Shown here: piece after piece, positions 21,473 to 44,997 of the stretch
How the letters are laid out: each line of letters starts with the position of its first letter
How positions within the stretch are numbered: position 1 is the stretch's first letter
Assembly: GCA_027307235.1 (NCBI GenBank)
Contig: DAHUXH010000011.1
Location: 27,501 to 91,500, forward strand
DNA length: 64,000 bases
From: Vulcanimicrobiota bacterium
Lineage (GTDB): Bacteria > Vulcanimicrobiota > Vulcanimicrobiia > Vulcanimicrobiales > Vulcanimicrobiaceae
Reading direction: 5' to 3'
Notes under the pieces: model-generated
Database searches by the model: none
Told to the model about the DNA's origin: nothing
Seen by the model: the letters and a program-made list of their open reading frames with translations, nothing else
Made by a program: the position numbers and the translations under genes

Positions 21473-21529
21473 CCGTACACCGTGGACGAACAACCAGAAC
21501 TCTTCATGACGGAGGCAAGAGAAAAGACG

Positions 21530-22594
21530 ATGGCAGATGCACGACGCTTCGTTCCTGAACACGCCGCGACGATCAAGGTGGTCGGTGTCGGCGGCGGCGG
21601 CTGCAATGCCGTCAACCGCATGATCTCGGCGGGACTCTCCGGTGTGGAGTTCTACGCGGTCAATTCCGACGTTCAAGCACTCCGCAACGCCCTCACCGAC
21701 AACACGGTGCAGATCGGCAGCGGTATGACACGCGGTTTGGGCGCGGGTGCGAACCCGGTGCTCGGACGCGAAGCGGCCGAAAACTCGCGCGAGGATCTCG
21801 CGTTGGTCCTCGACGGCGCGGATCTCGTCTTCATCACCGCCGGCATGGGCGGCGGCACCGGCACGGGCGCCGCGCCGGTCGTGGCGGAGATCGCGCGCGA
21901 ATCGGGCGCACTCACGATCGCGGTCGTGACCAAACCGTTCGCGTTCGAAGGCCGTAAGCGCATGCATCTTGCCGAGCAAGGCGTGCAAGAACTCGAAGCC
22001 AAGGTCGACACCCTGATCACGATTCCCAACGAGCGCATCCTGCAAGTGATCGAGAAGAAGACCCCGCTCAACGAGGCCTTCGCCTTCGCAGACGACGTGC
22101 TGCGTCAAGGCATCGCCGGCATCAGCGATCTGATCACGCAGCCCGGATTGATCAATCTCGATTTCGCCGACGTGAAGACGATCATGACCGATGCCGGCTC
22201 CGCGATGATGGGGATCGGCGAAGGCACGGGCGAGCACCGCGCCGCCGACGCCGCGCAGAAAGCGATCGCGTCGCCGCTGCTCGAGACCACCATCGAAGGC
22301 GCGCGCGGCGTGATCTTCAACATCACCGGCGGCCCCGACATGGCGATGTACGAAGTCAACGAGGCAGCCGAGATGATCAGCCGCAGCGTCGATTCAGAAG
22401 CGCAGATTATCTTCGGTGCAAGCGTCGATCCGTCGATGACCGGCCGCGTGCGCGTGACCGTGCTTGCCGCCGGATTCGGTGCGCCGAAGTTCCGGCGCGA
22501 CAGCGGCTACGCGTTCGACACCAAGCTCGACGCCGTCGCGCCTGTGAACCTCGACGATATTGAGGTGCCCGCCTTCCTCCGCTACCGGGGGTAG
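21530..22594 (+). CDS. ftsZ: Cell division GTPase FtsZ with a short C-terminal linker
   Basis: A 354-residue tubulin homologue that forms the division ring. The tubulin signature [10 protein letters not shown] is at about 107-116, the T7 loop [11 protein letters not shown] at about 209-219, and the conserved C-terminal peptide [10 protein letters not shown] at about 342-351, which binds FtsA. The linker between the globular core (ending near residue 316) and this peptide is only about 25 residues. I chose the ATG at 21530, preceded by GGAGG 14 bases upstream; in-frame GTG 21482 and ATG 21506 are alternatives with poorer signals. A structured repeat begins one base after the stop. Confidence 0.96.
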
Positions 22595-22595
22595 G

Positions 22596-22699
22596 AAAAA
22601 CTTTCGGAGATGCGCCATGCCTTCGTTGCGAAGTGCCTCGTGTACCGTAGTACACTTCGGCTCTTCGCGCCTCGGCCTGACGCATCTCTGAAAGTTTTT
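22596..22699. repeat. Structured dispersed repeat, copy 1 (after ftsZ)
   Basis: A 104-nt element with a 19-bp outer stem (22596-22614 with 22681-22699, one G-U). Read on the minus strand it has a 70-nt core that matches the plus-strand core of copy 2 (about 43528-43597) at 62 of 70 positions, without gaps. Inside is a second stem and a terminal hairpin GTGTAC-TACG-GTACAC. Both strands end in a T-run after the outer stem, so this copy may also act as a bidirectional terminator between ftsZ and the convergent dioxygenase gene. Family not named by me; see findings. Confidence 0.85.
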
Positions 22700-22733
22700 G
22701 GTGCTTCCTGGATGGTGCTGGAGAACTCGCTGG

Positions 22734-23885
22734 TTAGGTTAGCCAGGAGCGGTAGTAGGTTTTGTCTTCGGTTTTTTCGGCGGGGTGGGCGATGGCGAGA
22801 GGGGCGAAGGTGTCTACCATGACGGCGATTTCGTCGGTGGAGGTTTTGCCTAGTGAGGCTTCGACCGCGCCGGGCTGGGGGCCGTGCGGCGCACCGGCGG
22901 CGTGCAGCGTGATCGAGCCTTCCTCGACGCCGCGCCGGCTCATGAAGTTGCCGCTGACGTAATAGAGCACTTCGTCGCAGTCTACGCTAGAATGATTGTA
23001 CGGAACCGGAACCGCGAGCGGGTGGTAGTCGAAGAGGCGCGGCACGAACGCGCAGAATGCGGCGCCCGGCGCTTCGAACGTCTGATGCACCGGCGGCGGC
23101 TGGTGTAATGCGCCGGTGATCGGTGCGAACTCGTCGAGATTGAATGCGTACGGATAGCAGTATCCGTCCCAACCGATGAGATCGCATGGATGGTTCTGAA
23201 CGACGTAGATCGCGCTGCGCTCGCGCGCGGCGACGCGAATCTCAAACTCTCCCTGCTCGTCGCGCGGCGCACGCAAAATGGGCGCGCGAAAATCACGCTC
23301 GTAGTAGGGGGCATGCTCGACGAGCTGTCCCGCATCGTTGCGGTATCTGCGCGGAATCTCGATCGCCCCGGACGATTCGTACACGAGCATCGTCGTCGCG
23401 TCGTTCGGAAGCAGGCGGTACGGTGTGCCCGTCGGCACGAGCACGTAATCGTGCGGCCGGTACGCGAGATCGCCGAATGGCGTTTCGATGGTGCCGGTGC
23501 CGCGATGGATGAAGAACAGCTCGTCGCAACCGGCGTTGCGATAGAAGTACGGCATCGGCAGCGTGGCGTGCGCGAGCGACAGCACGAGGTCGTCGTTGCC
23601 GAGCAGCGGCGTGCGCGCGTCGATGGCGTTGCCGCTCGCATCGATCGCGGCGGTCTTGAAATGCCGGTTGCGAACGGGATCGTTCGGAGAAAAACGGATG
23701 TGCGGACGATCCCATGGACGCACGTCGAGCGTCGCGGTCGGCGGTCGAAGATGATAGAGCAGTGAGTACACGCTCTCGAAGCCGCGCGTCGAGAGAAGTT
23801 CTTCGGCGTAGAGACCGCCGTCAGGCCGCCGGAACTGTATGTGCCGCTTCGGCGGAACCTCGCCCGCTCGAATGTATGTCGGCAT
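22734..23885 (-). CDS. Homogentisate 1,2-dioxygenase-like cupin protein
   Basis: A 383-residue protein resembling the short bacterial homogentisate 1,2-dioxygenase family, which opens the ring of homogentisate in tyrosine/phenylalanine breakdown using Fe(II). It has two cupin halves. Near the C-terminus VPYNHSSVDCDEVLYYVSG and HAAGAPHGPQPG supply His/Glu residues suited to metal binding. The N-terminal half includes CDELFFIHRGTG. It is somewhat shorter than the human-type enzyme (about 445). No other homogentisate-pathway gene (maiA, fahA, hppD) is nearby. A CDGSH gene lies immediately upstream on the same strand, 12 bp away. Exact substrate not certain. Confidence 0.72.
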   Translation of the reverse strand: MPTYIRAGEVPPKRHIQFRRPDGGLYAEELLSTRGFESVYSLLYHLRPPTATLDVRPWDRPHIRFSPNDPVRNRHFKTAAIDASGNAIDARTPLLGNDDLVLSLAHATLPMPYFYRNAGCDELFFIHRGTGTIETPFGDLAYRPHDYVLVPTGTPYRLLPNDATTMLVYESSGAIEIPRRYRNDAGQLVEHAPYYERDFRAPILRAPRDEQGEFEIRVAARERSAIYVVQNHPCDLIGWDGYCYPYAFNLDEFAPITGALHQPPPVHQTFEAPGAAFCAFVPRLFDYHPLAVPVPYNHSSVDCDEVLYYVSGNFMSRRGVEEGSITLHAAGAPHGPQPGAVEASLGKTSTDEIAVMVDTFAPLAIAHPAEKTEDKTYYRSWLT

Positions 23886-42226: not shown

Positions 42227-43495
<1,269 letters not shown>

Positions 43496-43510
43496 AAGGG
43501 CGGGCTTCAG

Positions 43511-43614
43511 AGGGAAGGGCTGATTTTCGTCAGGCCGAGGCGCGGAGAGGCGAAGTGTACTATGGTACACGAGCCTCTCCGGAACGACGGCATGGCGAGA
43601 ATCAGCCCTTGCCT
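43511..43614. repeat. Structured dispersed repeat, copy 2 (after clpX)
   Basis: The second copy of the element found after ftsZ, with its conserved core on the plus strand. The outer stem pairs 43515-43529 with 43596-43610 (15 bp, one G-U) and extends 3 bp beyond a mismatch. The inner stem CGGAGAGGC/GCCTCTCCG is perfect, and the terminal hairpin GTGTAC-TATG-GTACAC matches copy 1 except for one loop base. It fills almost the whole gap between clpX and the convergent propeller gene. Confidence 0.85.
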
Positions 43615-43615
43615 T

Positions 43616-44944
43616 TTAGAATTGCGCTTCGCCTAGGCGGATGAACGTTCGGGGCTTCGACAGACCGCGGAGGGTCTTGGTGTCGGTGGGCGGGACGGTC
43701 TCGGTCCAGGCGCCGTAGACACGGCCGGCGTAGGCCGCGAGCGCACTGTAGTCGCCGACGAACTGATGACGGGGGTTCCACGGGCGCGTCGTCCAGGCGT
43801 AATTGGTGAACGTTGCGCCGCCGTCGGTGGAGCGCGCCAAGGTGATCGTCGCCACCAGATTGCGCGGATCGCCGCGACGGTCGTTGAAATCGAGGTAGAC
43901 GTCGCCGGTGGCGCGGTCGACCGCCATCCATTGGTAGAAGTGATCGGCGCCGTTGTGCAGTTCATCATTGTTCACGCGAACCGGCGCGCTCCAGGTGGTG
44001 CCGCCGTCGGTGGACGAAGCGACGAAGACGTCGGCACCACCGTCGCGAGTGTCTGACCAGGCAACGTACAGGCGATGGTTCTTGCGATCGATGTCGATCT
44101 GCGGAAACCCGTTTGCGGTGCGGCCGTCGAATCCTGACAGCGGAAAATTCGCCGCCGGAATGTCGATGATCGGACGCGAGGCCTCAAACGTCTTTCCGCC
44201 GTCACGCGAACGGGTGAAGATAAGATGCGAACCGTCTTGCCACACGACATCGAGCGTCCCGTCGGCGTCGACGGTGCCGTCAAACCCCTCGACGGTGCCG
44301 TTGTCGTCGCGCGGCGTTCCGTTGTTCGTGCTGATGCGCAGCGGTTTCGACCAGGTCGAGCCGCCGTCGGTCGATCGTGAGAACACGATCTGCGCGTCGG
44401 CGATGCGAAACTGCGTCCATCCGACATAGAGATTCCCCGCGTAGGGGCTCCCGGTGTCGTCAGCGACGACGATCGGTTTGTCTTCGAACAGATTCGGGTG
44501 GCCTTCGTGAGCGATGACCGGAATCGCGCGCGACTCCCAATGCGCACCGCCGTCGAGCGACCGGCGGATGTCGATGGCGTTGCGCGTCGCGCCGTGCGCC
44601 CAATACTGATCGCTGCCGAGCCGGTCAAACGCGATGTAGCAGAGGTAGGCGCGACCGCGCGCATAGGCAAGTGAGACGTCGCCGCTCACGGCATAATTGC
44701 GCGGCGCGAGATTGTGCGTGTGCCACGTGCGTCCGCCGTCGGTCGTATTCGCGACGTGCGCACCGACTTGAAAGGCTGCGACGGCATGGCGCGGATCACG
44801 CTCGTCGATGGCGAGCGCCGGCTCCGAGCCGAAGCCGATCGGCGAGATGGTGAGCACGCGTCCGGAGGGAACGCGCGGTAAATGGGCGGGCGCGGCCGCC
44901 GCGATGGCGACGATGAGGGCTGTCAGGACGATCGTTTTTTTCAA
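43616..44944 (-). CDS. Secreted Asp-box (BNR/sialidase-like) beta-propeller protein
   Basis: A 442-residue exported protein. The signal peptide is LKKTIVLTALIVAIAAAAPA. Six Asp-box repeats follow (TDGGRTW, SLDGGAHW, STDGGSTW, SRDGGKTF, STDGGTTW, STDGGATF), as in sialidase-fold propellers. Catalytic sialidase residues (the Arg triad, Tyr/Glu pair) are not evident, so enzyme activity is doubtful; such propellers often bind sugars or proteins. I assign the TTG at 44944, 9 bases after GGGAG and directly at the signal peptide, rather than the long upstream frame that enters valS. It is divergent from valS across 53 bp. Confidence 0.8.
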   Translation of the reverse strand: MKKTIVLTALIVAIAAAAPAHLPRVPSGRVLTISPIGFGSEPALAIDERDPRHAVAAFQVGAHVANTTDGGRTWHTHNLAPRNYAVSGDVSLAYARGRAYLCYIAFDRLGSDQYWAHGATRNAIDIRRSLDGGAHWESRAIPVIAHEGHPNLFEDKPIVVADDTGSPYAGNLYVGWTQFRIADAQIVFSRSTDGGSTWSKPLRISTNNGTPRDDNGTVEGFDGTVDADGTLDVVWQDGSHLIFTRSRDGGKTFEASRPIIDIPAANFPLSGFDGRTANGFPQIDIDRKNHRLYVAWSDTRDGGADVFVASSTDGGTTWSAPVRVNNDELHNGADHFYQWMAVDRATGDVYLDFNDRRGDPRNLVATITLARSTDGGATFTNYAWTTRPWNPRHQFVGDYSALAAYAGRVYGAWTETVPPTDTKTLRGLSKPRTFIRLGEAQF

Positions 44945-44997
44945 GAAGTCATTCTCCCAGGGGCTCGTGCATGACACGCTGAACGCATCGCGCTTCG

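Follow-up and report, generated by a model that had tools for sequence, protein, structure and literature searches.

A stop-codon-associated hairpin family in Eremiobacterota (Vulcanimicrobiota), possibly a mobile element recognised by its shape

Two hairpins and the genes they adjoin

The window analysed here, the whole stretch of 64,000 nucleotides from a 2.41-Mb Eremiobacterota MAG (Vulcanimicrobiota), contains two long hairpins of about 106 nt, one directly after ftsZ and the other near clpX (Table 1). The question they raise is whether they resemble each other by chance or belong to a family and, if the latter, what moves the copies and what keeps their arms paired. The first-pass annotation had described a gap-free 70-nt core shared at 62 of 70 positions, which was confirmed, and both copies fold far better than their shuffles, with z values of about -11 to -12 (copy 1, -62.5 vs -27.2, z -11.2; copy 2, -75.8 vs -34.4, z -12.0). 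The two compensatory swaps reported for the inner stem are both present, A-T to G-C at core columns 20/54 and C-G to G-C at columns 25/49. The outer stems had been called fully paired and unrelated in sequence; neither description holds, as copy 1 has one A.C mismatch in its outer stem and a consensus is common to the outer stems across the host copies.

The naming of the second hairpin as a twin after clpX is right by position but misleading. The element belongs to the convergent gene at 43616-44977 and not to clpX, because its fixed end adjoins the stop codon of the convergent gene. The BNR-repeat protein encoded there also weakly matches Tli3, a family of T6SS immunity proteins. With regard to the first copy, the host FtsZ is 80-85% identical to the FtsZ of Eremiobacterota MAGs, which places the host in this phylum, and six ftsZ relatives without the element at this site have the same FtsZ C-terminus as the host; therefore the insertion after the stop codon left the FtsZ protein unchanged.

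Table 1. Coordinates of the two hairpins, their parts and the neighbouring genes (window positions)
Feature	Position	Strand	Remark
Copy 1, full hairpin	22595..22700	-	adjoins ftsZ stop codon 22592-22594
Copy 1, conserved 74-nt core	22611..22684	-	
Copy 1, apical hairpin GTGTAC-TACG-GTACAC	22640..22655	-	
Copy 1, internal loop 2, 5' strand GAA	22656..22658	-	partner GA 22638-22639; putative tandem G.A motif
Copy 1, internal loop 1, 5' strand GAGGC	22669..22673	-	partner AACGAA 22622-22627; nearly invariant across the family
Copy 2, full hairpin	43510..43615	+	right end adjoins stop codon (TTA on +) of 43616-44977
Copy 2, conserved 74-nt core	43526..43599	+	
Copy 2, apical hairpin GTGTAC-TATG-GTACAC	43555..43570	+	
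Copy 2, internal loop 1, 5' strand	43537..43541	+	partner 43583-43588
Copy 2, internal loop 2, 5' strand	43552..43554	+	partner 43571-43572
ftsZ	21482..22594	+	stop codon adjoined by copy 1; C-terminus VPAFLRYRG
Homogentisate dioxygenase-like gene (HgmA_N)	22734..23885	-	convergent, far side of copy 1; stop 33 nt off
BNR-repeat protein gene	43616..44977	-	convergent; stop codon adjoined by copy 2
clpX	42227..43495	+	named by its sequence alone; ends 14 nt before copy 2

Copies, fold and orientation in the host genome

A covariance model built on the core (R1) retrieved 72 full-length copies from the host genome, all with E 4e-14 or better. Four partial copies complete the host set of 76; two are cut at contig ends, and two are shortened forms without the tip, picked by eye among the weak matches. 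One more weak R1 match sits within a gene, looks like chance and is kept outside the 76. The window pair is not a coincidence, since the genome holds 72 full-length copies and the covariation described below exceeds that of all 500 shuffles. Four copies carry an exact tandem duplication of their 3' half and another (C2:32165) that of one arm, which indicates hairpin-driven instability at the DNA level. The four gene-side cases might have been taken for 5'-truncated retro-copies reduced to their 3' halves, but they are tandem duplications with identical arms. Three tandem element copies with a spacing of 87-88 bp are also seen at C10:72604-72851 of G000 (L013).

The element is an imperfect palindrome, in which the outer stem (about 27 bp) is followed by internal loop 1, the inner stem (10 bp), internal loop 2 and a tip of 6 bp. 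Mirror pairing continues for about 15 bp past the core and then falls to chance level, and the ends of the element are therefore sharp. The terminal tetranucleotides differ among the copies (CTAG, GTAG, TTAG, ATAG) and are paired. In an alignment of 81 copies from 16 genomes (A4), the two internal loops are nearly invariant, loop 1 being AGG opposite AACGA (or GACGA) and loop 2 CGAAG opposite GAG, and these loops are conserved throughout the phylum, in contrast to the stems, whose letters turn over. Near-identical cores bear arms that differ at up to 22 of 32 positions, many of these being paired double changes. When 44 pairs are counted over the 81 copies, 88.9% of the cells are paired and 40 of the 44 pairs have two-sided changes; the covariation score reaches 0.676, compared with 0.189 (sd 0.007) for the 500 shuffles, all of which lie below it, and 0.10-0.15 for slid controls. 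A non-canonical pair in internal loop 1 also covaries (C.A / A.G). The earlier suggestion that structure is kept besides sequence is thus strongly supported by the covariation and the compensated stems. Judging from their letters, both loops on the element strand may form tandem sheared G.A pairs.

Wobble pairs permit the two strands to be told apart, G.U on one strand being the mirror image of A.C on the other. When counted on the element strand, G.U outnumbers A.C by 95 to 7 in the inner helix and by 54 to 0 in the tip, and the excess declines to 66 vs 36 in the outer arm (pairs 4-16); inheritance accounts for many of these cells, and the number of independent events is therefore lower. In the inner helix the bias persists (51 vs 7) at sites with the opposite strand alone as sense. 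The host outer arms have little or no bias (GU 34, AC 30), and the sequence beyond the element is balanced. Wobble pairs so specific to one strand of the inner helix speak against a simple palindrome of double-stranded DNA. Rather, the inner part appears to be under selection as a fold of the element strand, either RNA or single-stranded DNA, and DNA template switching may be largely responsible for keeping the outer arms paired.

The orientation of the element against genes is equally asymmetric. By the gene calls of a simple codon-usage script, in which single cases may be wrong, the right-hand gene points toward the element in 64 of the 76 host copies; in 52 its stop codon falls between -16 and +6 nt from the right end, compared with 10 such cases at the left end (p 6e-8). 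The relatives behave similarly, with a stop codon at the right end in 47 of 73 copies and at the left end in 6 (p 6e-9). The stop codons adjoining the right end are TAG (31), TGA (10) and TAA (10), and eight TGA cases sit inside the arm itself. Convergent genes flank 42 of the 76 host copies, and divergent genes only one.

Distribution among relatives, old sites and mobile copies

A second model includes the outer arms (R2) and was applied in the wide searches to 26 to 48 candidates from each genome. It detected the element in at least 63 of the order's 81 genomes, all of them MAGs, and in two further families of the phylum, f13 and f15. The phylum includes a cultured genus, Vulcanimicrobium. 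Copies per relative genome range from 0 to at least about 25. The distribution is patchy, most copies are lineage-specific, and copy number amplifies in single lineages.

Several sites are nevertheless old; the names of their genes were partly read from the sequences. The site after tuf and before rpsJ is occupied in three genera and that after rpsD and before rpoA in four, and further sites common to genera follow rpoC, nusG, rpoD and others. At the rpsD site, the outer arms are 88-94% identical among three genera, and the inner stems have been rewritten with their pairing kept. The arm there takes in the two final codons and the stop of rpsD; the protein end VDEQLIVEYYSR is the same in 4/4, and where a codon has changed synonymously the downstream arm carries the matching change, which reflects either selection on pairing or arm-to-arm copying.

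The clearest evidence for mobility and recurrent targeting comes from two f15 genomes of different species, G117 and G119. The copies there are near-identical palindromes of about 163 bp, some with an extra hairpin; they number dozens in one genome and are dispersed in unrelated flanks as is typical of MITEs. These copies mostly end in CTAG, and the TAG stop codons of the neighbouring genes fall exactly there. One gene end carries a type B copy in G117 and a type A copy in the opposite orientation in G119. Most of the copies have CTAG at both ends, but CTAG is its own complement. A target-site duplication of TA or YTAR was considered but is not apparent in the host, where the outer flanks pair as inverted and not direct repeats (GTAG/CTAC, TTAG/CTAA). 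In G117, a cobalamin riboswitch (RF00174, 73.5 bits; L307 2606-2738, minus strand, contig C1) lies a few hundred bases from an element copy.

Several possible vehicles and origins were tried and set aside. The Y1_Tnp/RAYT domain (PF01797) has no match in the host genome and occurs in 2 of 61 genomes of the order and in 5 of 14 controls. Hence, the proposal of a REP-like palindrome moved by a RAYT is right in kind, in that the copies are dispersed 3'-end hairpins in high number and, in one genome, near-identical in unrelated flanks, but the proposed mobiliser is absent from the host. G042 (genus g37) has strong Y1 transposase genes (C11:275383 and C3:270040) and at most one weak element match; therefore no link of RAYT-like genes to element number is seen. 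G117 and G119 have no end pairs enclosing a gene-sized insert, and thus no parent element with a transposase. A virus or plasmid vehicle was likewise rejected, with no exact match for two element patterns in viral contigs and no element match in plasmids. Insertion of the core into pre-existing terminator hairpins was discarded as the general case, because the window has no other such long intergenic hairpin and a consensus is common to most host arms.

Mobile element, RNA element or mutational product

The architecture with its two purine-rich loops is kept, the orientation against stop codons is fixed, and the copies amplify in single lineages and, in one genome, stand in unrelated flanks. 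These properties could be best explained, with about an even chance of being right, by a structure-recognised REP/MITE-like mobile hairpin that is placed at gene ends and of which some copies are kept for function. The loops and stem geometry of the folded element strand (RNA or single-stranded DNA) would be recognised by a putative enzyme, which would place copies at gene ends, with (C)TAG-type stop codons forming part of the end and the host gene remaining intact. Such copies would be tolerated and sometimes retained as 3'-end elements. Two processes would restore the pairing of their stems, namely selection on the folded strand in the inner helix and, in the outer arms, template switching of DNA from one arm to the other. 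Several observations weigh against this explanation. No transposase was found, there being neither a Y1_Tnp in the host nor any pair of G117 ends around a gene-sized insert; a classical target-site duplication is not clear, the outer flanks being inverted repeats; the old copies at rpsD, tuf and elsewhere keep their structure across genera, beyond the need of a purely selfish element; and the host outer arms have little strand bias. A fuller version is more tentative and on balance somewhat doubtful, namely that these are phylum-wide mobile hairpins recognised not by sequence but by shape, with two purine-rich internal loops in a stem of free sequence, and inserted in one orientation at stop codons by a putative non-RAYT enzyme. 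The older copies would then have been exapted at essential genes, the pairing of the stem tying synonymous codons and the stop codon to the arm downstream.

The main rival, considered rather unlikely, is a cis-acting mRNA 3'-end element, i.e., a hairpin at or before the stop codon that stabilises the message or stalls terminating ribosomes. The fixed adjacency to stop codons agrees with it, as do the sites shared between genera, many of them behind genes of translation or transcription (tuf, rpsD, nusG, rpoD, rpoC), and the rpsD stem, in which synonymous changes are matched downstream. There is also a precedent, since ribosome stalling is reported for E. coli REPs at most 15 nt from a stop codon (PMC12306157). 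However, the best-folding strand with its wobbles is the antisense of the adjoining gene, even between co-directional genes, and the patchy, mostly lineage-specific distribution also weighs against it. A multi-copy structured RNA from the element strand, antisense to the adjoining gene and acting as an RNA gene family or antisense regulator, is improbable; the wobble asymmetry, the loops readable in A4 as possible tandem sheared G.A pairs and the covarying pair in loop 1 favour it, whereas Rfam offers no match and 72 near-identical cores in one genome would be unusual for an RNA gene.

Two further readings fare worse. Covariation of purely mutational origin, with template switching copying arm onto arm and no structural selection, is quite improbable. 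The mechanism is documented (PMC8794818), and it would fit the near-identical cores with strongly differing arms and paired double changes, the arm duplications and the lack of wobble bias in the host outer arms; yet the strong strand-specific bias in the inner helix and tip counts against it, and it leaves the phylum-wide conservation of the loop letters unexplained. A bidirectional transcription terminator is highly improbable in spite of the long GC-rich hairpins between convergent genes and the AAAAAC/GTTTTT arms of copy 1. The novel terminator class suggested earlier is not borne out, as only 4 of 145 copies have a U-tract after the hairpin, all four on the same strand; the other strand has it in 0 of 145, which leaves 141 of 145 with none on either side. 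Moreover, termination does not need complex conserved internal loops, and some copies lie 15-65 nt upstream of same-strand genes, e.g., rpsJ after tuf.

The preferred reading of a mobile hairpin invites comparison with known systems. REP/BIME families with a RAYT and a GTAG tag are likewise multi-copy extragenic palindromes near the 3' ends of genes, mostly between convergent or co-directional genes, with lineage-specific amplification (PMC3733652), and in this broad sense the present element is a REP. However, RAYT REPs are hairpins of 20-40 nt with an unpaired GTAG at the foot, while the element measures about 106 nt, has paired and variable ends with no fixed GTAG, and differs further in that its stems vary by covariation while the internal loops are kept. 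It is not filed as a RAYT REP because the RAYT, the tag and the size all disagree. CGTC-tagged REPs, too, are repeated palindromes close to the 3' ends of genes and lack a dedicated transposase (PMC3733652), but theirs is a short hairpin with CGTC as an unpaired end tag, whereas here CGTC lies within the stem, in some subfamilies only, and is absent from most relatives. Bacterial MITEs such as RUP, NEMIS/Correia and Nezha resemble the element in being noncoding, 70-300 bp long, bounded by inverted repeats and beside genes; the element differs in forming a single hairpin as a whole, in end sequences that are not conserved across copies, and in having neither a proven target-site duplication nor a parent transposon. 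With structured RNAs it shares covariation above background. Integron attC sites are hairpin sites in which structure outweighs sequence, lie beside the stop codon of a gene and are active as the fold of one strand. The element appears to agree with them in all three respects, but is scattered at chromosomal housekeeping genes and not in cassette arrays, and its ends have no conserved pair of box motifs.

Neither the element nor its long G117 forms nor those of other relatives have an Rfam match above the gathering score, and the literature search found no description of such repeats in this phylum, though an earlier one may exist. As far as these sources show, the family is undescribed. REP-type hairpins are common, and to our knowledge their mobilisers and functions are mostly obscure outside the RAYT systems. 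The present family offers a clean case, with no RAYT, strict orientation to stop codons, hundreds of copies across the phylum and covariation strong enough for mapping the recognised structure and strand. It also allows selection and template switching to be weighed against each other as the cause of long paired stems, because inner helix and outer arms follow different patterns, and it suggests that the 3' ends of essential genes are being remodelled by a mobile element.

Elsewhere in the window, an 18-bp near-perfect hairpin (1865-1903) lies directly 3' of the 5S rRNA and is probably the terminator of the rRNA operon.
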